DNA of 64,000 nt. Origin: Christiangramia sp. OXR-203. Its GTDB lineage: Bacteria; Bacteroidota; Bacteroidia; Flavobacteriales; Flavobacteriaceae. The DNA is taken from the NCBI RefSeq assembly GCF_034372165.1, contig NZ_CP139698.1, positions 1,984,001-2,048,000 of the forward strand. Reading direction: 5' to 3'. The translations under genes and the position numbers were made by a program. Below, in pieces: positions 11,795 to 33,948 of this stretch (position 1 is its first letter; each line of letters begins with the position of its first letter). The notes beneath the pieces are model-generated. The model searched no databases and was not told the DNA's origin. It was given only the letters and a program-made list of their open reading frames with translations.

Positions 11795-11937
11795 CTAATT
11801 CTTTGTTGCGCCTGAAGGGGGAAGGGTTATTCAGTACATAACACCTCCCCTACAGGACTTTAAACACCAAGTACCAGAAATTTCAACTAACCAATCAAAC
11901 AATTATAAAAATTATTCTTTCTGATACTGGGTTTTAT

Positions 11938-13129: not shown

Positions 13130-15520
13130 TTAAAATCTTAGTGAAAGTCCGCCTCCAGCTCCAAACCGGTTGTCATAACTTCCCATAAGAGAAAAGTTTT
13201 TTCCTAAAAAATATTCCAGGCCGGCGCTCCAGGTAATTTCTTTTTTAAAATTTTCATCTTCAGGTAAATCGTCTACCCAGCCAAAATCTGCCTGAAATTC
13301 ATACTCTCCAAAGACAGCTAATCTGGGAAAAATCATGATTTCCCGGGCCAGACTTATCTGTGGTCTTAATTTGCTATCCAGCCGAACATCCAAAGCAAAC
13401 ATATAAGGAGTAAAATACCTGATTCCACCAATTGCAGTAGTTTGAAGTTCTTCCATGCTATCCTCCATTTCATTCTCCACATTTATCCCTCCAAAAACAC
13501 GAACCCAGTCATTAAGGTAATATTCATAGGAGATTTCAGCTTCCAAATTCTTATTCCAGCCATACTCAGCTAAAACAGTAAATTGATTTCTGATGTTGGA
13601 GCTTACCACATTTAAAGTAGACATATGTGAAGCTACATCCAACATCCCCCAGGTATAGAATTTATCGGTTTCATTAATGAGGTTAGAAATAGGGAATGGC
13701 TTCATACGTTCATCCCGTGGGGTATCATAACTTACCACTCTGGCCATACCAGAATCCAAATGATAAAGGATGTGGCAATGTAAAAACCAGTCTCCATATT
13801 CATTAGCATAAAACTCTATGGTTACTTCTTTCATAGGAGGAACATTCACGGTATGCTTCAAAGGCGAATATTCTCCATTTTCATTTATTACCCTAAAAAA
13901 ATGACCATGCAGGTGCATAGGGTGGTGCATCATAGTGAGGTTATTAAAGGTAATTCTGGTAACCTCATCGCCTTTTATTTTGATTTTATCGGCTTCAGAC
14001 AGTGGTACGCCATTTAAACTCCAAATATAACGGTTCATATTTCCAGTTAAATTCAGTAAAACATTGGTGACCGGGATGCTATCGTTAAAAGCCGTCTTTT
14101 CTGGCGATTTAAGGTAATCGTAATTATATTCCGAAAATAGATCCATTGCCTGCATATCTTCCATTTTTCCCTTTTTCATATCCATCCCATTCATTTCGTC
14201 ATCCTTCATGGCCATCCCATCCATCCTTTTATCTTTCTCACCCATTCCTCCCATTACAGAATCTTTTTTCATATTCATTTTAGAGTGGTCCATTCCTCCC
14301 ATTACAGAATCCTTTTTCATATTCATTTTAGAGTGGTCCTCTTCTCCCATCTTCATATCGTCCATTTGCATCCCCCATTTTTCCTTTAACTCATATGGGT
14401 CCGGATCTTTAGGATTAAATTGTAAAGCTGGCGCGCCCATCTTCATCTTCATTTTTGCCATTTTTTGCATCATACCAATTTTATCTGGTTTTGGCACATT
14501 AGGAGCAGGGAGTATTCTCCCCTCCCCAAGAAAAGCTGAAGCTGTTCCAGAACCATCCTGAGCCATGATTTTAAATTCCACTTTCCCTTCATCAGGAATA
14601 GTCACAATAAAATCATAGGTTTCTGCCACTGCAATAAAAGTTTTATTTCTTTTAAGCGGAACAATATCTTTTCCATCAGCCGATACTAAAGTGGGGGTTT
14701 CCCCACCAAAGGTCATCCAAAATGAAGTGGAGGCGGAACCATCAATAATACGCATCCTCACTTTTTCACCTGGTTTAAAATCTGGGTATTCAATTTTATC
14801 CTCGCCATTAATTAAGAAGGCAGGATAATAAATATCAGCAATATCAGCCCCTTCCATTCGTTGCCTCCAGAAATCTAATTGTGCTCCCAATGCTCCTCGT
14901 TTTATTACCTGATTTAGTGGTGTCGCAGTTCCTTTTTTAATGTTATACCATTCCGTTCCTCTTTTTAGAAACCTTAAAACATCCTTAGGTTTTTCATTGG
15001 TCCAATCTGAAAGTACCAGCACCAGTTCTTTATCATATTCCAGTGTTTTTTCTTTTGGATGGATCATAAGCGCACCGTAAACGCCACTTTGTTCCTGTAG
15101 CATGGTATGGGAATGATACCAATATGTTCCATGTTGCTTTATCTCAAATTCATACTTAAAAGTAGTTCCAGGTTTAATGGGCGGAGTGGTAAGGTAAGGC
15201 ACCCCATCAAAAAAATTGGGCAACAACATTCCATGCCAATGGATAGAAGTTTCTACATCCATTTTATTCTCTACATAAATTACCGCGTATTCCCCTTCAG
15301 TAAATTCTAATACAGGGCCAGGAATTCCGCCATTAATAGTCATTCCCATGGTCTCTTTACCCTTGGCTTTAACAACCATCTCCTGATCTATAGTTATTTT
15401 GTATTCACGCACCGGTAAATTATTAATATTTCCTTCTACCGATGCCTCTAATTCTTCCTGGCTGTAGCCTGAAAAGCCTAAAAATATCAGGAGAATTAGA
15501 AAGTAGTTTTTCAATTTCAT
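13130..15520 (-). CDS. Multicopper oxidase (CopA-type) fused to a CopB-like outer-membrane domain
   Basis: This 796-residue exported protein has a signal peptide at 1-20 ending GYSQ. The cupredoxin copper sites are clear: HWHG at 94, HSH at 136, HPMHLHGH at 533 and HCHILYHLDSGM from 581. It should oxidise Cu(I) to the less toxic Cu(II). A Met-, His- and Asp-rich insert (about 345-460) carries copper-binding MDHSKM motifs. Residues about 615-796 do not belong to the oxidase: they resemble CopB, a small outer-membrane barrel, and end in an aromatic F, as outer-membrane proteins do. The fusion would tether the oxidase to the outer membrane. It follows the DUF305 gene by 11 bp. Confidence 0.9.
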   Translation of the reverse strand: MKLKNYFLILLIFLGFSGYSQEELEASVEGNINNLPVREYKITIDQEMVVKAKGKETMGMTINGGIPGPVLEFTEGEYAVIYVENKMDVETSIHWHGMLLPNFFDGVPYLTTPPIKPGTTFKYEFEIKQHGTYWYHSHTMLQEQSGVYGALMIHPKEKTLEYDKELVLVLSDWTNEKPKDVLRFLKRGTEWYNIKKGTATPLNQVIKRGALGAQLDFWRQRMEGADIADIYYPAFLINGEDKIEYPDFKPGEKVRMRIIDGSASTSFWMTFGGETPTLVSADGKDIVPLKRNKTFIAVAETYDFIVTIPDEGKVEFKIMAQDGSGTASAFLGEGRILPAPNVPKPDKIGMMQKMAKMKMKMGAPALQFNPKDPDPYELKEKWGMQMDDMKMGEEDHSKMNMKKDSVMGGMDHSKMNMKKDSVMGGMGEKDKRMDGMAMKDDEMNGMDMKKGKMEDMQAMDLFSEYNYDYLKSPEKTAFNDSIPVTNVLLNLTGNMNRYIWSLNGVPLSEADKIKIKGDEVTRITFNNLTMMHHPMHLHGHFFRVINENGEYSPLKHTVNVPPMKEVTIEFYANEYGDWFLHCHILYHLDSGMARVVSYDTPRDERMKPFPISNLINETDKFYTWGMLDVASHMSTLNVVSSNIRNQFTVLAEYGWNKNLEAEISYEYYLNDWVRVFGGINVENEMEDSMEELQTTAIGGIRYFTPYMFALDVRLDSKLRPQISLAREIMIFPRLAVFGEYEFQADFGWVDDLPEDENFKKEITWSAGLEYFLGKNFSLMGSYDNRFGAGGGLSLRF
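14243..14338 (-). repeat. Two 48-bp tandem repeats in the Met-rich copper-binding insert
   Basis: Units 14243-14290 and 14291-14338 differ by one visible base and encode 16 residues each (DHSKMNMKKDSVMGGM). Since 48 is a multiple of three, the repeat number can change without breaking the frame and would tune the number of Met/His copper ligands. Confidence 0.9.
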
Positions 15521-22076: not shown

Positions 22077-22805
22077 TTAAGTTTCAGGATCTCTGCTAAA
22101 AATTTTAATCAAATTAAATATCATTACACAAAAAACGACCCATATAAACCCCGCAATGAACCCGCCAAATACGTCTGAAGGATAATGTACTCCAAGATAA
22201 ATCCGGCTTAATCCAATCCCGAGGATTAAAATTGCGAAAATTGTGATCAGAAAAAACTTAATGAATTTATTTATCGGTAAACTGAAGATGAGATATATTA
22301 TAAATCCATAGAATGCCATCGCCATAGTAGCATGGCCACTAGGAAAACTAAGCGTTTCTACTTTAACCAGATGTTCTGAAACAGGTCTAGGTCTATCTAT
22401 TGTTTTTTTTAAAAGTAAATTAGAACCCAGAGCAAGAATCATTACCAAGGCAATTTGAGCTACATATTTCCAACTTTTTAAAATCCAATAAAAGAAAATA
22501 GCACTTAAACTAAACATAATCACATATCCAAGTGTATCCCCAAAATTGGTTATAAATGTAAAAACAGTAGTTATTGCACGAGATCGAAAATCTATAAAAA
22601 AATTAGTGACTGCGGTATCATAATTCGCTAAAACATCAGATTTTAAAAATTCAGTAAGCTCTATAAATAATTTGATCCCCCCTATTACAATGATAGCAGT
22701 AATTAAAGTAGTTATAATATAGGGAAGCTTGTGATCGTATTGTCTAAATTTATTTGAAAGAATTTCTTTTATCTTTCTTAATACGCTAAAAAGTTGTTTT
22801 CGCAT
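22077..22805 (-). CDS. PAP2-family membrane phosphatase 1
   Basis: This 242-residue protein has about six transmembrane helices. The three PAP2 phosphatase motifs are present: KKTIDRPRP, FPSGHATM and SRIYLGVHYPSD. The family includes undecaprenyl pyrophosphatases and lipid A phosphatases (LpxE/LpxF-type), and the active site faces the periplasm. It is divergent from the response regulator gene and shares a 131-bp intergenic region holding one of the 11-bp-spaced repeat sites. A role in envelope lipid dephosphorylation is likely; the exact substrate is not visible. Confidence 0.9.
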   Translation of the reverse strand: MRKQLFSVLRKIKEILSNKFRQYDHKLPYIITTLITAIIVIGGIKLFIELTEFLKSDVLANYDTAVTNFFIDFRSRAITTVFTFITNFGDTLGYVIMFSLSAIFFYWILKSWKYVAQIALVMILALGSNLLLKKTIDRPRPVSEHLVKVETLSFPSGHATMAMAFYGFIIYLIFSLPINKFIKFFLITIFAILILGIGLSRIYLGVHYPSDVFGGFIAGFIWVVFCVMIFNLIKIFSRDPET

Positions 22806-22882
22806 AGTTCAAAATGAATAAATTATAATTAACGTGCAAATTAGGATTCGAATCTAAAGACAAATTGAATTTTCTATATTTA

Positions 22883-22917
22883 CTTTAATATTTCTTTAGA
22901 ATCAACCTCTACCTTTA
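22883..22917 (+). promoter_or_regulatory. CTTTAGATTT-type repeat site 1 (response regulator operon)
   Basis: Repeats CTTTAATATTT at 22883 and CTTTAGAATCA at 22894 are 11 bp apart. A -7-like TACCTTTA begins at 22910, 16 bp after the start of the second repeat. The site also lies upstream of the divergent PAP2 gene and could serve both. Confidence 0.65.
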
Positions 22918-22936
22918 TTCCCTTAACTTTTTAATA

Positions 22937-23611
22937 ATGAAATATCTAATTGCCGAGGATGAAAAAGAATTACAGCAATCTATCGCCACTTATTTGAGTC
23001 ATGAAGCTAATGTGTGTGAAACCGCATCAGATTATCACGAAGCTTCAGAAAAATTAGAACTCTATGAGTACGATATTGTTATCCTGGATATTAACCTAGT
23101 TACTGGGAGCGGACTCGATCTACTCAAAAAACTCAAAAAGCAACAAAAAAAATGTGGCGTGATTATTATTTCAGCAAACAGTTCATTAGATAATAAATTA
23201 GAAGGATTGGATTTGGGTGCAGATGATTACATCACTAAGCCTTTTCATCTTGCCGAACTAAATTCACGCATAAAAGCAGTCCTAAGACGTGGGCAATTTG
23301 GTGGAGATAACACTATAAATTTTCAGGAAATTAAGTTGGACACTATGGCCCGTAGTGCCTATGTAAATGGGAAAGCTATTACACTTACAAGAAAGGAGTA
23401 TGATCTTCTTTTATTCTTTATCACCAATCAGGGAAGAGTTCTATCAAAAGCAATTATTGCAGAACATCTTTGGGGAGACGATAGTGACTTGTTAGATAAT
23501 TTTGATTTTATTTATGTGCACATCAATAATTTGAGAAAAAAACTTACTAAAGAAGGTGCAAAATATATCCAAACGGCCTACGGAAGTGGTTATAAATTCA
23601 TCGCAGATTAA
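22937..23611 (+). CDS. OmpR/PhoB-family response regulator
   Basis: This 224-residue regulator has a receiver domain at 1-115 with acidic AEDEKEL near the start, the phospho-acceptor Asp in DIVILDINLVTGSGLD, and the KPFH lysine switch. The DNA-binding winged helix (about 125-224) includes TRKEYDLLLFFITNQGRVLS and ends YGSGYKFIAD. Proteins of this class bind direct repeats of about 11 bp, which fits the CTTTAGATTT repeat sites found before this gene and six more times up to 33299. It is cotranscribed with the histidine kinase and is probably autoregulated through site 1. Confidence 0.92.
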   Translation: MKYLIAEDEKELQQSIATYLSHEANVCETASDYHEASEKLELYEYDIVILDINLVTGSGLDLLKKLKKQQKKCGVIIISANSSLDNKLEGLDLGADDYITKPFHLAELNSRIKAVLRRGQFGGDNTINFQEIKLDTMARSAYVNGKAITLTRKEYDLLLFFITNQGRVLSKAIIAEHLWGDDSDLLDNFDFIYVHINNLRKKLTKEGAKYIQTAYGSGYKFIAD

Positions 23612-24875
23612 AAATTCAACCCCAAATAAAACAAAACTATTAAGAAAAGCTTCCAAGACTTTTCTAATTACCAGTATTGTGATAATGATACTCTCAGGTA
23701 TTGTTCTTTTCATATATACCAAATCGCTTTTGGAGAATGAAATTGAAGAAGAGCTCTATTCCAATAAAGACCGGGTAGAGCGTTTGCTGAAAAACAATCC
23801 TGATCTCGTGGGAATCCCACCAATCATGATGGCTGAAAAAACTGAAATTTCAGAAGAAAATGTTCTTATTGACACACTTATTTTTGATCCGCTTCAGGAT
23901 GAAGTAGAACTTTTCAGGCAATTATCTGGTACCAGGAATATTAATGGTCAAGAGTATAAAATAACGGTCCGGGCAATGGTTATTGAATCTGAAGATATTC
24001 TTTCTGCAATTGTCCTCACATTCCTGTCAATAATTTTCCTAGCTTTTATTTTCCTTTTTTATCTGAATAAATCCCGTAATGAAAAACTATGGCAACCATT
24101 TTTTGTGAATTTGGAACGCTTAAAAAGTTTCTCTTTAAAGTCTGATAAACCTTTAGAACTTAATGATTCAGATATTGTTGAGTTTGATGAACTGAACAAG
24201 CAAATGCTGGCATTAACTTCAAAAGTTCAGGCCGACTATCGAAATTTAAAACAATTTACCGAGGATGTCTCTCATGAAATGCAGACACCACTTGCAATTA
24301 TGCAAGCTAAAATAGAAACGCTCTTTGATCAACAAAATATAAACGAAAAACAATATGAGCAGCTTAGCTCACTTCAGTTTGATATACAAAGACTTAAACA
24401 ACTGAACAATCGGTTGATATTACTTGCCAAAATTGATAATAATCAGTTTACCGCAGATGAGAATATTTCGATAAATGAAACTCTTAAACAGTCAATTGAT
24501 AATTTTACTGAGATCACTCAGACCAGGATAGCCCTTAATGGAAAGGATGAAATAACTGCTATTATGGACAAAGCGCTCGCTTCTATACTATTTAATAATC
24601 TATTGACCAATGCTATAAAACACAATTTTGGAAACCAGCCTATCAGTGTGGTTATCGAAAAGAACCATGTTCAAGTTATCAACGCCGGAACTGAAGGCCT
24701 AAGTAATCCAGAATATATTTTTGATCGTTTTTACAAAGAAAGTAAAAAACCAGATTCCACAGGTCTGGGTCTTTCCATAGTGAAGAAGATTTGTGACTTT
24801 TATGGGTTTTTACCTTCCTATAGATTTCATGAAAGCAGTAAAAAACATATTTTCCAGATTGAATTTGATACTTGA
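23586..24875 (+). CDS. Sensor histidine kinase
   Basis: This is a partner kinase of about 430 residues. A transmembrane helix TFLITSIVIMILSGIVLFIY starts near residue 25, a short periplasmic loop follows, and a second helix (IVLTFLSIIFLAFIFLFYL) lies near residue 150. HisKA contains FTEDVSHEMQTPLAIMQAKI with the phospho-accepting His. The ATPase domain has NNLLTNAIKHN and STGLGLSIVKKICDFYG. The start is uncertain: GTG at 23586 is plausible, and an ATT overlapping the regulator stop is another option. A GTG at 23556 lies too far inside the upstream gene. The small sensor loop favours sensing of membrane state or cations. Confidence 0.9.
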   Translation: MVINSSQIKNSTPNKTKLLRKASKTFLITSIVIMILSGIVLFIYTKSLLENEIEEELYSNKDRVERLLKNNPDLVGIPPIMMAEKTEISEENVLIDTLIFDPLQDEVELFRQLSGTRNINGQEYKITVRAMVIESEDILSAIVLTFLSIIFLAFIFLFYLNKSRNEKLWQPFFVNLERLKSFSLKSDKPLELNDSDIVEFDELNKQMLALTSKVQADYRNLKQFTEDVSHEMQTPLAIMQAKIETLFDQQNINEKQYEQLSSLQFDIQRLKQLNNRLILLAKIDNNQFTADENISINETLKQSIDNFTEITQTRIALNGKDEITAIMDKALASILFNNLLTNAIKHNFGNQPISVVIEKNHVQVINAGTEGLSNPEYIFDRFYKESKKPDSTGLGLSIVKKICDFYGFLPSYRFHESSKKHIFQIEFDT

Positions 24876-24893
24876 AATTTTTTAAGTCTAAAA

Positions 24894-24928
24894 CTTTAAA
24901 TTTCCTTTAGATCGCACCACTACATTCA
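24894..24928 (+). promoter_or_regulatory. CTTTAGATTT-type repeat site 2 (TonB-dependent receptor)
   Basis: Repeats CTTTAAATTTC at 24894 and CTTTAGATCGC at 24905 are 11 bp apart. A weak -7-like TACATTCA begins at 24921, again 16 bp after the second repeat start. The receptor ATG is at 24944. Confidence 0.6.
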
Positions 24929-24943
24929 CGAAAAATTCAGCTG

Positions 24944-27367
24944 ATGAAAGTATGCCTGAAGAAAGAAACTCTTCTTTTATTTTTCTTATTTATTTCAACC
25001 ATTGCCGTAGGCCAGGGTATTACTGTTACAGGCCAGGTAATAGAACAAGATACGCAGGAAACACTCCCTTTTGTAACCGTATCTATTTTTGATGCAACTA
25101 GTCTAAACATAGTAACAGGTACCGTAACCAATGAATCTGGCCAGTTTACGGTAGAACTGCCTACCGGAAATTATCTACTGAAAATATCATTTGTAGGTTT
25201 TGAAACGCTAGAAAGAAAAATAACTGCCGGTGGACTTAACCCTATTTTTGATTTGGGAAAAATTGAGCTTGCCACTTCTTCAGAATCGCTGGATGAAGTA
25301 GCTATTGTTGCAAAACGAACAACAGTCTCTTCAGATCTTGACAAAAAATCTTTTAGCCTTGATGATAATGTAGCACAATCTGGCGGATCTGTACTAGATG
25401 CCATGAAAACTATGCCTGGAGTAACTTTTGACCAGGAAGGAAAAGTGGTGCTTCGCGGAAGTGATAAAGTAGTGGTGCTCATTGATGGAAAACAGTCCAG
25501 TTTAACCGGGTTTGGTAATCAAAAAGGCCTTTCTAATATTCCCGCGGCTAATATTGAACGTATCGAAATCATCAATAATCCATCGGCAAAGTATGACGCC
25601 AATGGATTTGCGGGAATCGTCAATATCATTTATAAGGAGGAAAAGCAAAAAGGGCTTAATGGTGATTTGGGAGTATCTTCTGGTTTAGGTGTTTTGTCTA
25701 AGAGAAAAAAAGACACCCCCACAGATTTTGGCAGCTACTCGATCAACCCCAAACTTATTCCCAGCCTGAATCTTAATTACCGTACCGAAAAACTGAATTA
25801 TTTTCTGCAAACAGAAATTATTCTACAGGAAGCTTTACCAAATAATGAATTTACTTCTAGATATTATGACGATGGCAGAAACATCATCTCCCAAGTTCCG
25901 GAAAACCGCAGACAATTTCGAAGCATTATAACCGGAGGTGTTGACTATGAAATTTCAGAAAATGACAACATTACTTTTTCAGGAATGTTTGATCGGGAGA
26001 AACACATTGACACTTCTCAAGTGGCATTTATCAATTTAGACAATAATGTGCGTAACCGTTTATATACTTGGAAGGAAGATGAGGTGACCAGTTTTATCAA
26101 TGCGGCTGTTAATTATGAGCATAATTTTAAGCAACCAGGTCATAAACTCTCCGTAAATGCTCAATATACGCGGGGATTGGAAGATGAAAGTTATTTTTTA
26201 AACGATAGTTCTACGGTTCGTATAGGTCGGGACATGACAAATATTAAGGCCATTGAGCATACTAGCAGTTTTTCTACAGATTATGCGAGGGCGCTAAGCA
26301 ATGGGAGGATAGAATTGGGTGCAAAAGCTCGCTTTAGAAGACTTCCTGTGGATTATACTATAGAACGTGGGAACCAAAGTATTATATATCCCAGTCTGGG
26401 CGATTTTTCAGAATGGAGAGAAAATCTTTTTGCTGCCTACGGAAATTACCTGCTGGAAAAAGAAAATTTTGATATAGAAGCTGGCTTAAGGGCAGAACAG
26501 ACTGATGTTTCCTATCAACTGGACCCAGAAAATATTTATTATGATTCTAACGATAACTATAATTATTTTGAATTTTTTCCCAGTGTACGCTTTACCTATA
26601 AACTAAATAACAAAAACAAACTTTCCGCTTTTTACAACCGTCGTATCGACCGGCCAGGAGAACCTGAATTGCGCATTTTCCCTAAATATGACGACCCGGA
26701 ACTGCTTAAAGTGGGAAATCCCTATTTACGACCACAATTTACCAACAGTTTTGAATTGGCGCATCGTTATTCCTGGAGTTCGGGATCCTTATTTTCTGCG
26801 ATGTATCACCGCGAAATTAATGGGGCATACCAGCGTATTTTCAGTATTGATGACAGTAATCCACAATACGATATCGTAAATAGAATTTATCAAAATACAG
26901 GGCATAGCACCAACACCGGTATTGAATTATTATTCAGTCAGGAAATTGCCGATTATTGGAAACTAAACTCAAGTTTAAATATTTATAGAAATGGTATTGA
27001 TGATTTTCAGGGAACTTTATTGTTTCCTTTTGAGCGACCATTTTTCATAGAAGAGTCTAAAGATACCGCTGGGGATTTTAAGATAACCAATACGTTTACT
27101 TTTCCTTGGGAACTGGAAGCTCAAATTACGGGGCTTTGGTACAGTGCCCGAAACATTCCCCAGGGAGAAGAGCTCGCTCGTTCTTCTATTGATGTAGGTT
27201 TTAAAAAATCAATTTGGGATAAAAAAGGTGAGATCACTTTATCTGCATCAGATCTGTTCAACAAATTTGGTTTGAGACAAAAGATCAACGGTCAGGATTT
27301 TACGGCTCTGTATGAAAATTATTATGAGACTCAAATTGTAAGACTTGGTTTCAACTATAAATTTTGA
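24944..27367 (+). CDS. TonB-dependent outer-membrane receptor with carboxypeptidase-like N-domain
   Basis: This 807-residue protein has a signal peptide (about 1-24, ending AVGQ). A CarboxypepD_reg-like domain follows (about 25-110: VTGQVIEQDTQETLPFVTVS), then a plug (SGGSVLDAMKTMPGVTF, VVLIDGKQSS) and a long barrel ending LGFNYKF with a terminal aromatic residue. This is the outer membrane beta-barrel receptor family of Bacteroidetes, not SusC. The substrate is unknown. Position directly behind the two-component system, with its own repeat site, places it in the envelope regulon. It may import a siderophore or peptide, or adjust permeability. Confidence 0.9.
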   Translation: MKVCLKKETLLLFFLFISTIAVGQGITVTGQVIEQDTQETLPFVTVSIFDATSLNIVTGTVTNESGQFTVELPTGNYLLKISFVGFETLERKITAGGLNPIFDLGKIELATSSESLDEVAIVAKRTTVSSDLDKKSFSLDDNVAQSGGSVLDAMKTMPGVTFDQEGKVVLRGSDKVVVLIDGKQSSLTGFGNQKGLSNIPAANIERIEIINNPSAKYDANGFAGIVNIIYKEEKQKGLNGDLGVSSGLGVLSKRKKDTPTDFGSYSINPKLIPSLNLNYRTEKLNYFLQTEIILQEALPNNEFTSRYYDDGRNIISQVPENRRQFRSIITGGVDYEISENDNITFSGMFDREKHIDTSQVAFINLDNNVRNRLYTWKEDEVTSFINAAVNYEHNFKQPGHKLSVNAQYTRGLEDESYFLNDSSTVRIGRDMTNIKAIEHTSSFSTDYARALSNGRIELGAKARFRRLPVDYTIERGNQSIIYPSLGDFSEWRENLFAAYGNYLLEKENFDIEAGLRAEQTDVSYQLDPENIYYDSNDNYNYFEFFPSVRFTYKLNNKNKLSAFYNRRIDRPGEPELRIFPKYDDPELLKVGNPYLRPQFTNSFELAHRYSWSSGSLFSAMYHREINGAYQRIFSIDDSNPQYDIVNRIYQNTGHSTNTGIELLFSQEIADYWKLNSSLNIYRNGIDDFQGTLLFPFERPFFIEESKDTAGDFKITNTFTFPWELEAQITGLWYSARNIPQGEELARSSIDVGFKKSIWDKKGEITLSASDLFNKFGLRQKINGQDFTALYENYYETQIVRLGFNYKF

Positions 27368-27413
27368 TATTTGAAACTTAAATTTTTTAATCTTTTAGTA
27401 GATATAACTTTTA

Positions 27414-27448
27414 CTTAAAGTTTACTTTAGATTACCTCCTTAGATTTC
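27414..27448 (+). promoter_or_regulatory. CTTTAGATTT-type repeat site 3 with no gene close behind
   Basis: Repeats CTTAAAGTTTA at 27414 and CTTTAGATTAC at 27425 are 11 bp apart. TAGATTTC, a 7 of 8 match to TAnnTTTG, begins at 27441, 16 bp after the last repeat start. The next coding start is 27732, so the implied transcript begins with about 280 nt of non-coding RNA. Confidence 0.6.
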
Positions 27449-27477
27449 AGTATTAAAGAATACATTAATTTATAAAT

Positions 27478-27642
27478 CAGGGCTTATTGGCTAAAACTAC
27501 TTTTTAGGTAAGACAATCTTTATTTGAATTAGCCATTATTTAAGGTACGATACCTGAATAAAAGCCCTGAAAAGGAAGGATCATCCTTACGAACTTGTGC
27601 CGAGCGCATTCGAAGTATCGTATTGCAAATCATCCTTCCTTT
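27478..27642 (+). ncRNA. Candidate structured RNA or structured 5' leader
   Basis: CAGGGCTT (27478-27485) pairs with AAGCCCTG (27562-27569) and encloses two further stems: ATTGGCTAA (27486-27494) with TTAGCCATT (27529-27537), and AGGTA (27543-27547) with TACCT (27551-27555). The result looks like a three-way junction. A second domain follows, with AAAGGAAGGAT (27571-27581) and ATCCTTCCTTT (27632-27642) as perfect 11-bp arms. It lies just after repeat site 3. It could be a regulated small RNA or the leader of the four-repeat membrane protein gene. No known RNA family was recognised. Confidence 0.45.
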
Positions 27643-27731
27643 GTCAGGCACAAAACTCTAATATCCATAACTTTAAGATTCCATTAGAATTACGTAGTAA
27701 TTTAATTCCATTATTTAAACAGACTTAAAAA

Positions 27732-28493
27732 ATGGAAAAAATCATTTTAAACAAAGTTGCAGAAATAACTGTATTGTTCTGGATTATGAAAATTATCGCT
27801 ACCACATTGGGCGAAACTTTAGGTGATTATATCGCACAGACTTTAGCACTCGGATATACTTTGGGTATTCTTATTACACTAATATTCTTTGTTGTGGTAT
27901 TGGTTATTCAGCTTTATGCTAAGAAGTATATTCCGCTGTACTTTTGGCTTGTAATTATTGCTACCACAACCCTGGGGACCGAAATTTCAGATTTCATGGA
28001 TAGGAGTCTGGGCCTTGGATATACTTACGGTAGTTTGATTTTATTTACTGGCCTCCTGGCAATACTATTAATATGGTATAGCAACTATAAAAACCTACAA
28101 GTCTATCCCATTTTTGAGAAGAAAAAGGAACTATTTTTTTGGACGGCCGTACTTTTTTCAAATAGTTTAGGAACGGCCTTTGGCGATTATCTCGGAGATG
28201 TGGCGGGACTAAGCTATTTGCAGGGAGCACTTATAACCGCTTCAATTATCGCAGTTGTAATTCTCTTGCACTACTTTACTAAGCTCAACCAGATTTTTCT
28301 GTTTTGGATAGCTTTTGTATTTACCAGACCTTTTGGGGCAACCTTCGGTGATTTTCTTACCAAACCTCGGGATAATGGAGGTATGGATTTGGGAACACTA
28401 CCTGCTTCTTTAATCTCAATTGTGCTGATTTCCATTCTAATTTATATTTCACATAAAAAACATCATCAGAAGATGATGAAGGAATCTCTTTAG
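27732..28493 (+). CDS. COG4705-type membrane protein with four internal repeats
   Basis: This 253-residue protein has about eight transmembrane helices. A motif of the form LG-x3-GD-(Y/F)-(L/I), followed by a G-L-x-Y-x2-G turn, recurs four times: TTLGETLGDYIAQTLALGYT, TTLGTEISDFMDRSLGLGYT, NSLGTAFGDYLGDVAGLSYL and RPFGATFGDFLTKP. The repeated Gly-Asp pairs inside membrane segments suggest a symmetric channel or transporter with acidic residues in the path. The family is uncharacterised. It is in the repeat-site locus and may be controlled through site 3 and its long leader. Confidence 0.85.
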   Translation: MEKIILNKVAEITVLFWIMKIIATTLGETLGDYIAQTLALGYTLGILITLIFFVVVLVIQLYAKKYIPLYFWLVIIATTTLGTEISDFMDRSLGLGYTYGSLILFTGLLAILLIWYSNYKNLQVYPIFEKKKELFFWTAVLFSNSLGTAFGDYLGDVAGLSYLQGALITASIIAVVILLHYFTKLNQIFLFWIAFVFTRPFGATFGDFLTKPRDNGGMDLGTLPASLISIVLISILIYISHKKHHQKMMKESL

Positions 28494-28533
28494 ATTTGCT
28501 TAAAGCCAGCTTGAGATTTGCCCTGTAGATTTA
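28488..28533 (+). promoter_or_regulatory. CTTTAGATTT-type repeat site 4 (PepSY-like gene)
   Basis: Three consecutive 11-mers start at 28488 (CTTTAGATTTG), 28499 (CTTAAAGCCAG) and 28510 (CTTGAGATTTG). TAGATTTA begins at 28526, 16 bp after the last start. The first repeat overlaps the end of the preceding gene. Confidence 0.65.
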
Positions 28534-28560
28534 CATTATAATTATAAATAATTAGTACAT

Positions 28561-29022
28561 ATGAAAAAATTAATTTTAGGGGTAGGAATGGTTGTAGTGG
28601 CAATGACTACCATAGCATTCACTTCAGAAAATAAGGATAAAGTTCCTCAGGTCGTTAAAAACGCTTTTGCAAAAAAATTTCCCACAGCAAAAAAGGTGGA
28701 ATGGGAAAAAGAAAATGAAACCGAATGGGAAGCTGAATTTAAAATGAACAATGTTGAATATTCAGCTAATTTCTTAGCAAATGGCACTTGGCAGGAAACC
28801 GAGCACGAAATGAAAACCAACGACGTTACACAGAATATTTTATCCTCGTTAAAGTCAAACTTTCCAGGATATGAGATAGAAGAAGTTGAAATATCTGAAA
28901 CTTCTAAAGGGTCTTTCTATGAATTTGAAATTGAAAAAGGGAAGATAGAAATGGAAGTTACTCTTGATAGTAGCGGTACTATTATAAAAAAGCAAATGGA
29001 AGAAGAGGAAGACAAAGATTAA
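28561..29022 (+). CDS. PepSY-like secreted protein
   Basis: This 153-residue protein has a signal peptide (about 1-20, MVVVAMTTIAFTS). Two PepSY-like/BLIP-like beta repeats follow: VVKNAFAKKFPTAKKVEWEK with EYSANFLANGTWQETEHEM, and ILSSLKSNFPGYEIEEVEI with KIEMEVTLDSSG. Such periplasmic proteins are frequent members of two-component regulons in Bacteroidetes and may modulate the sensor or a protease. The very acidic tail (EEEEDKD) could bind cations. The promoter carries three repeats (site 4). Confidence 0.87.
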   Translation: MKKLILGVGMVVVAMTTIAFTSENKDKVPQVVKNAFAKKFPTAKKVEWEKENETEWEAEFKMNNVEYSANFLANGTWQETEHEMKTNDVTQNILSSLKSNFPGYEIEEVEISETSKGSFYEFEIEKGKIEMEVTLDSSGTIIKKQMEEEEDKD

Positions 29023-29089
29023 GTGTTAGTTTTCATAATTGATTGGTTAGTTTGAAATGCTCGATACTATTATTTAGGATCGGGCATTT

Positions 29090-30025
29090 TCATTGACTTT
29101 TAAACCAATCGATCTGTTCCTGCACTCCTTCTTCAAGAAGCACCGTGGGATTATAATTAAGTAAATCTCTTGCTTTAATAATAACTGCTTTCGTACGCAA
29201 TTGATCGCCACTACGAGCGGGTTTTTCCTTACTCTGAATTTTGGTTTTGAGTAATTTTTCAACAACCTGCATACCTTCCTCTGTAGTGTATTCTTTATCA
29301 GTTCCAAGATTAATTATCTGCCCATCACATAGCTTCTCCTTACCTATTACACTTACAATTCCTTCAACAATATCTTTAATATGCGTAAAACTGCGTTTAT
29401 GAGTGAGGCTACCTAAAAATAAAGGGAACTCTCTCCCATTCAAACCACATTTAATTAACTGACTGAACATTTTATCCGGGCGTTCCCGAGATCCATAAAC
29501 TGAATATAACCTTAGAGAGCAGGCAGGAAAATTCCCAAGTCGGGAATGGGTCATGGCTATTTGTTCAGCAGCAAGTTTCGTGACCCCATAGTTAGATACC
29601 GGTTTTGCCATTTGTTCTTCATCACAATATACATCGGAACCATAAATCGATGAAGTCCCAATATTGATAAATAACTTTAAATTAAGATGTTGATTTGCAA
29701 AATCGGTTAAATGATGTGTCGCAATGATGTTATTATTTAGATAATCTTCAAACGTAGAAGTACTTGAGATTCCAGGTTGCGCAGCACAATGAAAAACATA
29801 ATCAAAATCTCTGGGTAGAATTGTAACTAAAAAATCTACGCAGATATCCTGCTCGATCATAGGAATTCCAAAACTGCGTAATTGGTTGGCATTCTGCCTT
29901 TTTAAATGGACGTTATAGTAACCTGAAAAGTTATCCATCCCAATTACTTCATGTCCCATAGAATGCAATTTTTCAGCAAGGTGGGAACCAATAAAACCAG
30001 CTGCACCGGTTACTAATATTTTCAT
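29090..30025 (-). CDS. NAD-dependent sugar epimerase/dehydratase
   Basis: This 311-residue extended short-chain dehydrogenase has the Rossmann motif VTGAAGFIGSHL at the N-terminus, the catalytic Ser/Thr region NIGTSSIYGSD, and the YGVTKLAAE Tyr-x3-Lys pair. It resembles UDP-glucuronate and UDP-glucose 4-epimerases and would make the nucleotide sugar used by the glycosyltransferases next door. It is divergent from the GT2 gene, and the 149-bp region between them holds repeat site 5, which may control both. The sugar cannot be named from sequence. Confidence 0.88.
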   Translation of the reverse strand: MKILVTGAAGFIGSHLAEKLHSMGHEVIGMDNFSGYYNVHLKRQNANQLRSFGIPMIEQDICVDFLVTILPRDFDYVFHCAAQPGISSTSTFEDYLNNNIIATHHLTDFANQHLNLKLFINIGTSSIYGSDVYCDEEQMAKPVSNYGVTKLAAEQIAMTHSRLGNFPACSLRLYSVYGSRERPDKMFSQLIKCGLNGREFPLFLGSLTHKRSFTHIKDIVEGIVSVIGKEKLCDGQIINLGTDKEYTTEEGMQVVEKLLKTKIQSKEKPARSGDQLRTKAVIIKARDLLNYNPTVLLEEGVQEQIDWFKSQ

Positions 30026-30110
30026 TTATATTCATTTGAATTACTTCAAATTAATGAAGAAAAAGCCTTTATCACAAGGCTTTATAACAATAGTTGTGAA
30101 AACAGTAAAA

Positions 30111-30145
30111 CTTAAAAATTACTTTAGATTTACAACGTAGTATTG
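30111..30145 (+). promoter_or_regulatory. CTTTAGATTT-type repeat site 5 (GT2 operon / epimerase)
   Basis: Repeats CTTAAAAATTA at 30111 and CTTTAGATTTA at 30122 are 11 bp apart. The -7-like TAGTATTG begins at 30138, 16 bp after the second repeat start. The GT2 ATG is at 30175. Confidence 0.65.
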
Positions 30146-30174
30146 CAAATTAAGCTAACAATTCCTGCCTAAGA

Positions 30175-30888
30175 ATGCCAAATACACTCACCATAATTGT
30201 ACCTGTTTACAACGAAGAAAAAAATCTGACCAGAGTAGAAAAAGAATTGCAGTCCTACATCGATCAATGTAAGCTCAAAATCACCGTTTTATTTGTAAAT
30301 GATGGTTCAAAAGATTCAAGCTTGCAGATTATTAAGCAAATATGTACCCAGAACAAAACTTTCAATTATCTCAATTTTGATAAGAATTATGGATTGAGCA
30401 CTGCTATTAAGGCAGGTTTTGATCATGCTGAAAGTTCGCTCGTTGGATATATTGATTCAGATCTTCAAACGAGTCCAAAAGACTTTAATCTTTTATTGGA
30501 ATATATTGATGATTATGACCTAGTAACAGGAGTACGCTCCAACAGAAAAGATAGTTTAATAAAAAATATGTCCTCTAAAATAGCCAACGGTATTCGTAGA
30601 AGCTTTACTCAGGACGGGATGGATGATACCGGGTGCCCGCTCAAGATCATAAAAGCTGATTATGCTAAACGTATCCCCATGTTTCAAGGCTTACACCGCT
30701 TTTTACCAGCAATGATTCTGCTTCAAAATGGAACGGTAAAACAGGTGCCAGTGCAACATTTTCCAAGGATTGCGGGTAAAGGCAAATTTGGTGTCTGGAA
30801 TCGTCTGCTTGGTCCTTTAGCAGATTGCATTGCCTATATATGGATGAAGAAAAAATATATCAATTATAAGATAGCAGACAAAGCATGA
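30175..30888 (+). CDS. GT2 glycosyltransferase (ArnC / dolichyl-phosphate-mannose synthase-like)
   Basis: This 237-residue cytoplasmic-face enzyme has TIIVPVYNEEKN at the start, FVNDGSKDSS, and the metal-binding DSDLQTSPKD. The acceptor-side loop GMDDTGCPLKI and the RIAGKGKFGVWNRLLGP segment resemble polyprenyl-phosphate sugar transferases. It lacks the C-terminal transmembrane pair seen in many homologues; the following LAB_N gene, overlapping by four bases (ATGA), may supply the membrane part. Predicted product: undecaprenyl-phosphate sugar donor for the ArnT-like enzyme. Confidence 0.88.
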   Translation: MPNTLTIIVPVYNEEKNLTRVEKELQSYIDQCKLKITVLFVNDGSKDSSLQIIKQICTQNKTFNYLNFDKNYGLSTAIKAGFDHAESSLVGYIDSDLQTSPKDFNLLLEYIDDYDLVTGVRSNRKDSLIKNMSSKIANGIRRSFTQDGMDDTGCPLKIIKADYAKRIPMFQGLHRFLPAMILLQNGTVKQVPVQHFPRIAGKGKFGVWNRLLGPLADCIAYIWMKKKYINYKIADKA

Positions 30889-31514
30889 GTAGTTGGTTAA
30901 TTTATACTATTGGTTTTTCTGCTCAATTATTATTTTCAGGTCGTTCTATTTTACAATGGATAATTTCTGAAAAACAAAAGAAGGTGCTTACCCCCGTATT
31001 ATTCTGGCAACTGAGTTTGATAGCTTCTTTTCTATTATTCATGTATGGTTATTTACGCAATGATTTTGCCATCATGCTGGGCCAAATACTGACCTATTTC
31101 ATTTACATACGCAATATGCATCTGCAAAATCAATGGCTGAAATTCCCGAAAATGCTGCGTTGGTTTTTATATATTTTTCCATTTATCATTCTTTATATTG
31201 GCTATAATAACCATGTTTATGATCGCGCTAAATTATTTCAGAATGATAACATTCCGCTTTGGCTTTTGTTATTAGGTATTATAGCTCAAGTGATTTTTAC
31301 TTTGCGCTTTGTTTATCAATGGTTTTATTCTGAAAAGCGGAAAGTTTCTTCCCTGCCTTTGGGTTTTTGGTTCCTAAGCTTATTTGGTTCTTTAATGATT
31401 CTTATTTATGCAATATTTAGGAAAGATCCTGTGTTACTTTTAGGTCATTCATTAGGCATTTTTCTATACGTTCGAAATATTTTGATCCTTAAAACCGAAT
31501 CTAAGATCCTTTAG
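30885..31514 (+). CDS. LAB_N domain membrane protein (two repeats)
   Basis: This 209-residue protein has six predicted helices built from two LAB_N (lipid-A-disaccharide synthase N-terminal domain) units: LFSGRSILQWIISEKQ near residue 16 and IFTLRFVYQWFYSEKR near residue 140, each followed by a GQxLTYFIYxRN or GHSLGIFLYVRN type helix. LAB_N proteins are commonly encoded between an ArnC-like GT2 and an ArnT-like GT39, and may act as the lipid-linked sugar flippase, which is not proven. The start overlaps the GT2 stop (ATGA), so expression is coupled. Confidence 0.87.
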   Translation: MSSWLIYTIGFSAQLLFSGRSILQWIISEKQKKVLTPVLFWQLSLIASFLLFMYGYLRNDFAIMLGQILTYFIYIRNMHLQNQWLKFPKMLRWFLYIFPFIILYIGYNNHVYDRAKLFQNDNIPLWLLLLGIIAQVIFTLRFVYQWFYSEKRKVSSLPLGFWFLSLFGSLMILIYAIFRKDPVLLLGHSLGIFLYVRNILILKTESKIL

Positions 31515-31565
31515 GTTTGCTTTAGATTTCGTTTAAATTTTCAAAAGATTTCAGTTCCACTTTTG
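31509..31565 (+). promoter_or_regulatory. CTTTAGATTT-type repeat site 6 (GT39 gene)
   Basis: Repeats start at 31509 (CTTTAGGTTTG), 31520 (CTTTAGATTTC) and 31531 (GTTTAAATTTT), exactly 11 bp apart. CACTTTTG begins at 31558, 27 bp after the last repeat start, which equals 16 plus one repeat period. The first repeat overlaps the LAB_N stop. Confidence 0.65.
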
Positions 31566-31584
31566 TAGCAATAAACTACAAAGA

Positions 31585-33240
31585 GTGACCCTAAAAAATA
31601 CTACTGACCGCTTTTATCTATTATTTATTTGTCTTGCATTTATTTGTCTCATCATTGGTTTAGGTTCTTATGGTCTTGCGGAAAGTAGTGAAGCCAGATA
31701 TGCTGAAATCAGTCGTGAAATGTTTCTTTCAGGTGACTATCTAAATCCACAACTTTTAGGGATTTTTCATTTTCATAAGCCACCTATTACCTATTATATT
31801 ACCTCTTTGGGCTATAAAATATTTGGTATCAATGAATTTGGCGCTAGATTTTTTCTTCAAGTTGCTATTGTAATTCAGCTTCTTCTAATTTATGGTTTAG
31901 CTCATTTACTATTTAGAAGTAGAAAAATTGCTTTTCTCTCCGGATTGATTTATTTCTCCATGCCTATTGTTCTTATATCAAGTCGAAACCTTACTACAGA
32001 TGCATATTTAACCACCTTTATCATGGCAGCTATTTTTAGCTGGCAGTATTACATCAGCAATAAAAAGTTACCTTTTCTCTATCTGTTCTATATACTACTT
32101 GGGTTGTCACTTTTGACTAAAGGTCCGGTTGCACTCTTATTTGTTCTGGTATATATCTTCACCTATAAAATCATATGTAAATCTGGTTTTAAGATCAATA
32201 CACATCATGTATTTGGTGTTTTAATATGCTTAACTATAGGAGCAAGTTGGTTTTTACTTTTAGTGGTTGAAAATCCAAAGCTCTGGGACTATTTTATTGA
32301 AAAACAAATTGCGGGAAGAATGACTGGTAGTTCTTTTAGTGAAAGAGCTAAACCTTTCTGGTATTTTATTCCCATAATATTTGGTTTACTTCTCCCCTGG
32401 CTAGTTGGAAGTATTCCTACTTTTAAATTTAAACTGAAATCTCTTTATAAGACAAAAAATCAATCTCTGGTTTTATTGATATCCAGTAGCCTGTTAATTC
32501 TACTTTTCTCAGTATTTCGTACCAAGCTTATATTATATATCCTTCCTGTATTTTGGATGATGGTTATTTATATAGCCAAACAATTAGAGAGCCTGGACAA
32601 GGAAAGTAAGAAATGCATAAGCCTGGTTTACTTGATAATTTTGACCATACTATTTATTGGTCTTCTTATTTGCTGGTTTTCTGAATTTGAGTTTATTAAT
32701 ATTCATACTTCAGCAATTATCACCTCCTTTTTAGTAACTATATTTTCTTTCGCTGTTCACTATTTCATAGAAAATGATAAAAAATATAAACCGGCAGTAG
32801 TTGGGGCTATTTTTAGTGGTGCTGTACTTTTAATTTCCAGCACTATTTTAAAAACAAATAGCCCATTAATTAACTCTACCCGACATATGGCAAATTTCAT
32901 CAATACTATTTCAAAAGAGAAGGATAAAACCATCTTGGTTTACGACTATTTACTTACTTCTATTCCATTTTATTCTAATGCTGAATATATCACACTACAA
33001 TCCACTCATAGAACAACAGATAGGGAAGTTCAATTTCAGAATAATGAGGATTGGAGGAAACAATTATGGGATGTGAATACTCCTGATGTAATAGCTAATC
33101 TTAAACAGTTATCCAAAGCCCGACATACTTTTCTTTTAGTTCGGAATAAATCGGAATTAAACGAAAATATCCAATTCTTGAGAAATGCGTTTGATCAAAA
33201 AAAGGAGTATCCTAAATGGACGATTTTTTACAATAATTAA
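31585..33240 (+). CDS. ArnT-like GT39 glycosyltransferase
   Basis: This 551-residue polytopic enzyme is expected to move a sugar from a polyprenyl phosphate to an acceptor such as lipid A on the periplasmic face. The first loop motif ESSEARYAEISREM, then HFHKPPITYYITSLGYKIFG, is the ArnT/PMT signature with catalytic acidic residues. About eleven membrane helices follow, then a soluble C-terminal domain (from about residue 430). The start is a GTG at 31585. It is placed with GT2 and LAB_N as a three-gene lipid glycosylation set, but has its own repeat site. Confidence 0.87.
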   Translation: MTLKNTTDRFYLLFICLAFICLIIGLGSYGLAESSEARYAEISREMFLSGDYLNPQLLGIFHFHKPPITYYITSLGYKIFGINEFGARFFLQVAIVIQLLLIYGLAHLLFRSRKIAFLSGLIYFSMPIVLISSRNLTTDAYLTTFIMAAIFSWQYYISNKKLPFLYLFYILLGLSLLTKGPVALLFVLVYIFTYKIICKSGFKINTHHVFGVLICLTIGASWFLLLVVENPKLWDYFIEKQIAGRMTGSSFSERAKPFWYFIPIIFGLLLPWLVGSIPTFKFKLKSLYKTKNQSLVLLISSSLLILLFSVFRTKLILYILPVFWMMVIYIAKQLESLDKESKKCISLVYLIILTILFIGLLICWFSEFEFINIHTSAIITSFLVTIFSFAVHYFIENDKKYKPAVVGAIFSGAVLLISSTILKTNSPLINSTRHMANFINTISKEKDKTILVYDYLLTSIPFYSNAEYITLQSTHRTTDREVQFQNNEDWRKQLWDVNTPDVIANLKQLSKARHTFLLVRNKSELNENIQFLRNAFDQKKEYPKWTIFYNN

Positions 33241-33242
33241 GA

Positions 33243-33299
33243 CTTTAGATTTCCTTTAGAATCTCTTTAGATTCTCAAAAGACTTTTCGTTCATCTTTG
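33243..33299 (+). promoter_or_regulatory. CTTTAGATTT-type repeat site 7 (PAP2 gene 2), best match
   Basis: Three consecutive repeats start at 33243 (CTTTAGATTTC), 33254 (CTTTAGAATCT) and 33265 (CTTTAGATTCT). CATCTTTG begins at 33292, 27 bp after the last start. This is the least degenerate copy and defines the consensus. Confidence 0.7.
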
Positions 33300-33360
33300 C
33301 TATCAGAGAAAATCAAAAGCCTATAGATAACATTTACTCAAATCTAAATTTTACTAATTA

Positions 33361-33948
33361 ATGCTTATCTATTTGCAAAATTTCAAATCTTCATTTTGGA
33401 CAGTAATCATCGTTTGCTGTCTTCTATTTGCTCAGTTTTCTTATGCTCAGGATACAAGTGAGACCATTCCACAAGTTGGCACAGTACAAAAAATAGGTGA
33501 CGTAATATTGATTGCTTTACCTGTTGCGACTTTAGGAACCAGCTTGATTAAGGGGGATAATGAAGGAGCCTGGCAATTTACAAAGGGGCTATTACTTACA
33601 GAAGCAGTCACATTTGGTTTAAAATTAGGGGTAAATAAGCAAAGACCAGATATGAGTAATGATAATTCTTTCCCATCAGGACATACCTCTACCGTTTTTC
33701 ATAGTGCAGGATATATACATAGAAGATATGGTTTTAAATATAGTATACCTGCCTATGCTCTTGCGGGATTTACAGCCGCAAGTCGTATAGATTCCAAGAA
33801 ACATGATATCCTGGATGTTCTTGCCGGAACAGCAATTGGTTTGGGAAGCAACTTAGTCTTCACGACAGAGTATCAACAGGAGCACATGGAATTAACTTAT
33901 GATAATTTTGAAGGGAATCATTTGATCGGCTTTAAATACAAATTTTAG
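33361..33948 (+). CDS. PAP2-family phosphatase 2, secreted or outer-membrane type
   Basis: This 195-residue protein has a signal segment (about 10-30, LLFAQFSYAQ). The PAP2 motifs read NKQRPDMSNDNSFPSGHTS and SRIDSKKHDILDVLAG, the KxxRPD variant common in Bacteroidetes envelope phosphatases, and the protein ends in an aromatic FKYKF. It differs from PAP2 gene 1 in having few transmembrane helices. A lipid A or lipid phosphate substrate is likely from context. The PhoX fragment follows after 4 bp, so both once shared the transcript from repeat site 7. Confidence 0.87.
   Translation: MLIYLQNFKSSFWTVIIVCCLLFAQFSYAQDTSETIPQVGTVQKIGDVILIALPVATLGTSLIKGDNEGAWQFTKGLLLTEAVTFGLKLGVNKQRPDMSNDNSFPSGHTSTVFHSAGYIHRRYGFKYSIPAYALAGFTAASRIDSKKHDILDVLAGTAIGLGSNLVFTTEYQQEHMELTYDNFEGNHLIGFKYKF

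Follow-up and report, generated by a model that had tools for sequence, protein, structure and literature searches.

A 64,000-nucleotide stretch of the genome of Christiangramia sp. OXR-203, a member of the Flavobacteriaceae (NZ_CP139698.1, positions 1,984,001 to 2,048,000; hereafter the window), contains nine promoters, between nucleotides 22836 and 33299, in which 11-bp direct repeats precede a Bacteroidota-type -7 element (Table 1). The repeats are real and look functional, and are very probably the binding sites of the OmpR/PhoB-type response regulator encoded at 22937, which is predicted to activate envelope-modification genes from an operator similar to the PmrA box and combined with a Bacteroidota promoter. 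The motif, its spacing, its conservation, its association with the regulator and the gene families were determined computationally.

The repeat has an exact 11-bp period, nearly fixed C, TT, A and GA positions, and the consensus CTTTAR-N5-CTTTAG. A preliminary description of this DNA had listed seven sets of such 11-mers, every one of which was recovered where it had been placed. The promoters number nine, a further pair at 27671/27682 preceding the DUF347 gene and a reverse-strand pair (22870–22836) preceding a PAP2 gene. Nor are the sites strictly intergenic as had been proposed, since those at 28488 and 31509 share 6 bp with the ends of the preceding open reading frames (ORFs).

Bacteroidota promoters possess a strong -7 element, TAnnTTTG, and a weak -33 element (accessible part of PMC6847099). 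In all nine promoters the distance from the start of the last in-register repeat to the start of a -7-like element is 16 bp, in two of them only if a degenerate extra repeat is counted. In these two, which precede the ArnT-like and second PAP2 genes and had been assigned a spacing of 27 bp, the register 16 bp before the -7 is filled by degenerate repeats at 31542 (CAAAAGATTTC, 3 of 11 positions mismatched) and 33276 (CAAAAGACTTT, 5 of 11), a register picked post hoc with the -7 already seen. In its favour, both promoters have CAAAAGA at that position, a heptamer common to the two degenerate repeats and occurring 20 times in the 64 kb (both strands). The 27-bp class, which was set aside and not disproved, is probably not real; the two promoters would then be four-register arrays that could hold two dimers. 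Five of the six -7 consensus bases are matched in six promoters, four in three and all six in none; by strand, the eight forward promoters have 4–5 of 6 at the fixed position and the reverse one 4 of 6. The 28488 array is weak, its fitting pair being 28499/28510 with 3 mismatches in the 34-mer defined below. In 23 further loci, which supplied 41 sites, the TAnnTTT element has the 16-bp offset 25 times, and no other offset occurs more than twice.

The whole genome (3,395,452 b) was scanned on both strands with a paired 11-mer pattern, CTTWARNNTTNCTTTAGAWT, written from the window's own repeats. All five exact matches fall within 22883–33262 of the window. Four matches have exactly one mismatch, three of them in the 10-kb cluster, so that the cluster holds 8 of the 9 matches with at most one; the scatter of equal repeats over many unrelated places, which the preliminary description had named as evidence against a regulon, was not seen. 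A 34-mer pattern comprising the paired repeats and the -7 element, with up to two mismatches allowed, matched nine times, seven of them in the cluster, against two for the control. A position weight matrix (PWM) of 35 positions was trained on 65 distinct sites taken from other genomes (23 loci), the window being excluded. Its 13 best matches on both strands of the window (at least 10 bits; 10.5–35.0) all start at 22836–33265, and the next scores 9.9. Forty simulated windows gave a mean of 0.7 matches of at least 10 bits and 0.2 of at least 14, with a maximum of 19.8 bits that is exceeded by nine matches in the window. The reverse-strand site, at 16.0 bits, is the weakest of the nine and lies below this maximum.

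Two outlying candidates elsewhere in the genome, the remaining matches of the 34-mer, were weakened as members of the regulon. The first, at 2638305, is internal to a long ORF, and the same sequence turns up in genomes that lack the regulator; the second, at 1234338, is nearly identical to a site of genome G216, in which the search for a regulator gave nothing at E≤1e-60. The latter (G000:C1, L020) is an isolated site of 26.3 bits with a -7 element at 16 bp, and precedes an epimerase-like gene.

Table 1. Predicted promoters, genes and structured RNA of the window (positions are those of the window; PWM scores in bits).
Feature	Position	Strand	Details
Multicopper oxidase	13130–15520		At or past edge of the part shared with sister species
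PAP2 gene (first of two)	22077–22805	-	Preceded by the reverse-strand site
Site and -7 before first PAP2 gene	22836–22870	-	ATTCAATTTGT CTTTAGATTCG, -7 TAATTTGC, 16 bp; PWM 16.0
Site and -7 before response regulator gene	22883–22917	+	Exact match; PWM 35.0; autoregulation predicted
OmpR/PhoB-type response regulator	22937–23611	+	Pfam Response_reg and Trans_reg_C, 92.2 and 73.1 bits; recognition helix ...NFDFIYVHINNLRKKL
Sensor histidine kinase, PorY family	23610–24875	+	NF052314, 401.9 bits (cut-off 350); HisKA and HATPase_c
Site and -7 before TonB-dependent receptor	24894–24928	+	PWM 30.4
TonB-dependent receptor / outer membrane beta-barrel	24944–27367	+	Pfam
Site and -7 before structured RNA	27414–27448	+	Exact match; PWM 25.4
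Structured RNA	27476–27659	+	Branched (multi-arm) 5' domain with closing pair CAGGGCTT/AAGCCCTG, followed by the 3' hairpin
Site and -7 before DUF347 gene	27671–27705	+	PWM 23.9
DUF347-repeat membrane protein	27732–28493	+	Pfam, 197.7 bits
Three-repeat array and -7 before PepSY-like gene	28488–28533	+	-7 TAGATTTA at 28526; PWM 20.4
PepSY-like protein	28561–29022	+	Pfam PF11396
NAD-dependent epimerase gene	29090–30025	-	Inside cluster
Site and -7 before GT2/LAB_N operon	30111–30145	+	PWM 30.3
GT2 glycosyltransferase, ArnC-like	30175–30888	+	ArnC model 102.1 bits (cut-off 529)
LAB_N-domain membrane protein	30885–31514	+	PF07578, 190.3 bits
Predicted four-register array (last degenerate, CAAAAGATTTC) and -7 before ArnT-like gene	31509–31565	+	-7 CACTTTTG; PWM 25.5, 18.4
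GT39/PMT glycosyltransferase, ArnT-like	31585–33240	+	ArnT model 180.5 bits (cut-off 567)
Predicted four-register array (last degenerate, CAAAAGACTTT) and -7 before second PAP2 gene	33243–33299	+	-7 CATCTTTG; PWM 31.1, 24.3, 13.6
PAP2-type phosphatase, weak LpxE resemblance	33361–33948	+	LpxE model 40.7 bits (cut-off 177)
P-type ATPase	44281–46833		
P-type ATPase with heavy-metal domains	58393–61140		

The conservation at homologous loci on which the preliminary description had staked its proposal was borne out. The family was surveyed through 199 genomes, one per genus, of which 38 have regulator homologs at E≤1e-60, and 40 stretches around such homologs were compared (loci carry L numbers and genomes G numbers), sites being accepted with at most 3 mismatches or a PWM score of at least 16. 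Among the 20 loci with a regulator of at least 68% identity, the window included, 16 have a site before the regulator gene. In other genera sites were found upstream of the same genes, namely orthologs of the TonB receptor, PepSY, PAP2, DUF347 and GT2 genes in several loci, if not in every gene-carrying locus. The TonB receptor ortholog is preceded by a site in L141, L142, L144, L149, L150, L151 and L224, with no match upstream in L152; the DUF347 site is kept in L032 and L141, with no match upstream of the gene of L151; and the GT2/LAB_N site is present in L032, L141 and L240, with no match upstream of the GT2 gene of L148. The site of the structured RNA (27414) is kept in L141 and L224 and weak in L032. 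The ortholog of the first PAP2 gene is preceded by a site in L032 and L150 (3 mismatches each) and that of the second in L144, L145, L146, L148, L149 and L150, and PepSY orthologs in other loci are likewise preceded by sites. The epimerase gene has no site of its own detected in the window, and its ortholog has one in L032 and L141. Sites in the relatives also stand before genes absent from the window's regulon, namely PhoX-type phosphatases, an OEP-HlyD-RND efflux operon, and a sulfatase-fold transferase with a lipid kinase after it; gene families there were run on one or two representatives and the rest assigned by length, position and similarity by eye.

The sites also accompany the regulator. 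All 19 family genomes with a regulator of at least 56% identity have two or more 34-mer sites (84 in total), as do 14 of the other 180 (62 in total); with the Christiangramia genome itself left out the comparison is 18/18 vs 14/180 (Fisher 3e-17, a statistic that ignores relatedness). Within the genus, 24 genomes were compared, six of which have a regulator of at least 68% identity. These six hold 9 (own), 7 (G205), 7 (G220), 7 (G200), 2 (G206) and 0 (G204) 34-mer sites, the own genome, G205 and G220 sharing one transferred locus. In the remaining 18 genomes together 7 sites were counted, and 3 of these are the sequence that L009 and L278 have within a long ORF. A protein search with the regulator in wider genome contigs returned 80 loci, seven of them (L031–L036, L104) titled as Bacteroidota and the others encoding distant OmpR-type proteins, mostly from other phyla. 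The idea of a single regulon under the local regulator is supported by these data, the sites tracking the regulator across genera and mostly within the genus.

Three side observations concern the loci of relatives. G125 carries two similar regulator/kinase loci (L142, L143), and in G200 (L240) a second regulator copy, interrupted by a stop codon, adjoins a GT2 gene having a good site. In L269 and L276 (regulators of 56–61% identity) two or three tandem sites lie upstream of one gene, the product of which resembles GyrB.

The regulator has the OmpR/PhoB family architecture, a receiver and a winged-helix Trans_reg_C domain, and its Asp51 aligns with Asp51 of PmrA. Operators of this kind, direct repeats read by OmpR/PhoB-type regulators, are already known, the PmrA box among them. 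Enterobacterial PmrA/PmrB (BasR/BasS) is alike in having an OmpR/PhoB-type regulator, which gives both the best NCBIfam match and the nearest PDB structures (BasR/PmrA); in its recognition helix, VHIHNLREK where VHINNLRKK occurs here; and in its targets arnC, arnT and a lipid A phosphatase gene, which those of the window resemble by best models, all below cut-off. The phosphorylated PmrA dimer reads the half-sites CTTAAG and XTTAAT, 5 bp apart, head to tail (accessible part of PMC3973317); two half-sites with an 11-bp period occur in both systems, as CTTAAG-N5-XTTAAT there and CTTTAR-N5-CTTTAG here. The systems differ in the half-site, in the Bacteroidota -7 promoter, in the scores, which lie far below the PmrA/PmrB cut-offs (62.4 bits for the kinase against the PmrB model, cut-off 314), in the additional targets (TonB receptor, PepSY, DUF347, RNA), and in the kinase, which passes the PorY-family model.

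Two PhoB models gave 161.3 (cut-off 296.2) and 157.1 bits (cut-off 270) with the regulator, neither of them passing. In the pho box, two 11-bp direct repeats replace the -35 element and the half-site is CTGTCA. The repeat design is thus shared and the half-site is not; the analogy to PhoB/OmpR-type repeats drawn in the preliminary description holds as to design, although the closest known example is not the pho box but the PmrA box. The kinase links the system to PorX/PorY of type IX secretion, but its adjoining partner is an OmpR-type DNA-binding regulator with Trans_reg_C, a domain that PorX is not known to carry, and no type IX secretion parts occur among the annotations of the targets identified here. 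The PhoPR system of Riemerella anatipestifer is similar in being a flavobacterial two-component regulator with autoregulation; the accessible part of PMC9603813 gives for it a core motif TTTAACA from DNA affinity purification sequencing (583 peaks), similar to that of Escherichia coli ArcA, where a CTTTAG pair is found here.

We propose that the PorY-family kinase would activate the 22937 regulator by phosphotransfer, and that the phosphorylated dimer would sit head to tail on the two direct repeats. The paired repeat would substitute for the -33 element at a distance of 16 bp upstream from the -7; because it covers this region, activation by recruitment of RNA polymerase is more probable than repression. 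The regulator is predicted to turn on its own operon together with the genes for the ArnC-like, LAB_N and ArnT-like proteins and the PAP2 phosphatases, whose likely role is envelope or lipid A-type modification. Further predicted targets are the TonB receptor, the PepSY-like protein, the DUF347 membrane protein and the structured RNA. Cationic peptides, metal ions or other envelope stress are candidate signals.

The surroundings of the regulon bear on the choice between these signals. Nucleotides 22077–33948 are 99.6% identical to G205 (45 mismatches in 11,872) and 99.99% to G220 (1 mismatch), both of the same genus, and the identity spans at least 20984–55415 (99.7–99.995%) in the former and at least 14904–61144 (98.9–99.99%) in the latter. 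Near-identity over tens of kilobases points to a recent transfer, and the regulon appears to have moved with its surroundings, near metal-resistance genes. No tRNA genes are present in the window. The same window encodes a multicopper oxidase, RND efflux proteins including a pump, and P-type ATPases, one of which has heavy-metal domains, and the hairpin of the RNA under one site recurs near heavy-metal ATPase and ArsP permease genes. On these grounds the regulon may answer metal stress rather than cationic peptides, as Salmonella PmrB senses Fe3+. This variant, which keeps the sites with the local regulator and so overlaps our proposal, falls somewhat short of an even chance, the target enzymes resembling lipid A-type glycosylation and phosphatase genes. 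The RND pump of the relatives decides nothing here, its scores with the drug (478.5) and metal (470.3) models being almost equal and both below cut-off.

Several observations weigh against assigning the repeats to the 22937 regulator and a PmrA-like role to its regulon. At up to two mismatches CTTWARNNTTNCTTTAGAWT gives 34 matches in the genome vs 38 for a reversed-pattern control, that is, background, and therefore only close matches are informative; moreover, the PWM training sites and the search patterns trace back to the window's repeats, so that the tests are not fully independent. No site was found before the regulator gene at L147, L154, L236 and L237 (regulators of at least 68%) at the settings used, nor any site in the partial locus L036 (60%). 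G204 (regulator 73%) has no 34-mer match and only two PWM matches, one before a PepSY-like gene and one before an efflux outer-membrane-like gene (by eye). In genomes with regulators of 56–61% the sites do not lie within 170 bp of the regulator gene, and several precede short or unannotated frames. The regulator's best model among 94 NCBIfam families, PmrA, is matched with 167.3 bits where the cut-off is 330, and the ArnC, ArnT and LpxE models, though the best for the targets, all score below their curated cut-offs. PmrA contacts DNA through Lys153, Arg171, Thr187, Asn188, His193, His195, Arg198 and Arg210 (accessible part of PMC3973317); in the alignment four of the eight are identical (Lys153, Asn188, His193, Arg198), the others being changed (Arg171 to Lys, Thr187 to Asp, His195 to Asn, Arg210 to Tyr). 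Lastly, L165 and L167, with regulators below 50% identity, have one PWM match each of 27–28 bits.

These last matches would suit another OmpR/PhoB-type paralog as owner of the sites, with the local regulator merely among its targets. Such paralogs are numerous, a first look at the genome yielding 29 candidates, and CTT-starting 11-bp repeats occur at paralog loci too. Such an owner is nevertheless very improbable, for the sites occur with the local regulator across genomes, regulon and regulator stay clustered in most loci of at least 68% identity, and the 21 loci L160–L180 (regulators of 46–55%) have no match at one mismatch or fewer.

The recognition helices also fit the local regulator. Regulators of at least 68% identity have the helix ...DFIYVHINNLRKK (VHINNLRKK) paired with CTTTAG sites, and those of 56–61% have ...THM-NLRKK with CTTCAG or CTTTAG sites, none before their own gene. 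A family of the same order (f2; mostly 53–54% identity, for example Chryseobacterium, L035) has ...AHVKNLKKK. Upstream of its regulator gene is an 11-bp repeat whose half-site is different, TTCAAAATTTCTTCAAAATTT or a close variant; in 6 of the 8 genomes searched this repeat immediately precedes the regulator and has TAnnTTT at 16 bp. Upstream regions of regulators were compared with shuffles by the mean best self-match of 10 bases at each lag. At lag 11 this was 9.1 for f2 (13 loci), against 7.2 at the next lag and 6.3 in shuffles; 7.4 for the group of at least 68% (16 loci), against 6.3 and 6.1; and 6.8 for the ...SQIKNLRKK paralogs, where it did not exceed lag 7. Helix and half-site thus differ jointly, as expected if the regulator reads the repeat before its own gene. 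Upstream of three ...SQIKNLRKK regulators (L160, L163, L173) CTTTCC-type 11-bp repeats were observed, which may indicate that half-sites starting with CTT form a general code among such regulators.

That the repeats are AT-rich promoter-upstream elements or mobile repeats with no specific regulator is scarcely credible: ordinary F. johnsoniae promoters do have AT-rich motifs centred at -18 and -28 (accessible part of PMC6847099), but here the period is exact and the key positions nearly fixed, close matches are almost absent elsewhere in the genome, and the repeats are kept before the same genes in other genera.

The structured RNA lies between the sites at 27414 and 27671, and is also found in L141, L032 and L224. 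Its 3' hairpin has the form CCTG..GGAAGGAT/ATCCTTCC..CAGG with the end CACAA. Covariance matches in the four sequences reach 1.5e-31 or better, the same four having built the model, and no Rfam family matched at gathering score in the four stretches searched. The full-RNA model gave two clear matches and one weak one in the 199 family genomes. Compared with shuffles, the fold has a z of -5.4 in the window, -2.9 in L141 and -0.5 in L032, the last being not better than shuffled. A small protein in place of the RNA was rejected, as no frame is open in all three species translated (by eye), as was intrinsic termination by the 3' hairpin, which is not followed by a T run.

The 3' hairpin (R2) has a wider distribution, its family being marked by AAGTCCTG, GGGAAGG, CCTTCCC and GTCAGGCACAA. 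A pattern search found 20 matches in 19 of the 199 genomes vs none for the control; 17 have the hairpin, and those of L245, L254 and L263 do not. A hairpin covariance model detected it in 41 of the 199 (genera) at E≤0.01, with adjoining pairs in 9 of the 41, and in 13 of 392 genomes across the phylum, where the five outside the family are all weak (E 3e-4 to 6e-3). Covariation gives modest support, with 93% of cells paired and 2 pairs changed on both sides, a number reached by 90 of 500 shuffles. Pfam searches on the neighbours gave DUF3347 upstream and, downstream, DUF2231, an HMA-type P-type ATPase, ArsP permease, AraC-type, DUF4440 and ion-channel families, the remaining neighbours being judged by eye. 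At L144, L150, L246 (G109 locus) the hairpin lies between the site and the regulon efflux gene. We regard the element as a candidate for a new RNA family; in the loci read it often lies close to metal-resistance genes. The window has the element (AAGTCCTG...CAGGCACAA) at a second place too, a weaker variant at 11803–11862 on the reverse strand (E 3.7e-6).

In a more far-reaching scheme, regulator, kinase, operators and a structured RNA under the regulon's own control would make up a self-contained envelope-defence unit, mobile together with metal-resistance genes. The hairpin would represent a cis-regulatory RNA family, new and responsive to metal or redox state, that is largely restricted to a single Bacteroidota family, and the same genes would be controlled twice, by the two-component system at transcription and by the RNA switch afterwards. 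We consider this scheme rather unlikely.

In the open-access literature, judged from titles and the starts of abstracts, no description was found of the motif, the RNA or any PmrA-like lipid A regulon in Bacteroidota, nor of this half-site and its joining to a Bacteroidota promoter, this set of genes or their mobile setting. The code CTTTAR-N5-CTTTAG, 16 bp, TAnnTTTG is offered as an operator code for a Bacteroidota two-component system. The findings suggest that a PmrA-like lipid A-type response exists outside the proteobacteria and travels as one unit, and the joint difference of helix and half-site between related families would be a natural data set for OmpR-family specificity. Linked to the regulon is an RNA element that may represent a new family near metal-resistance genes.

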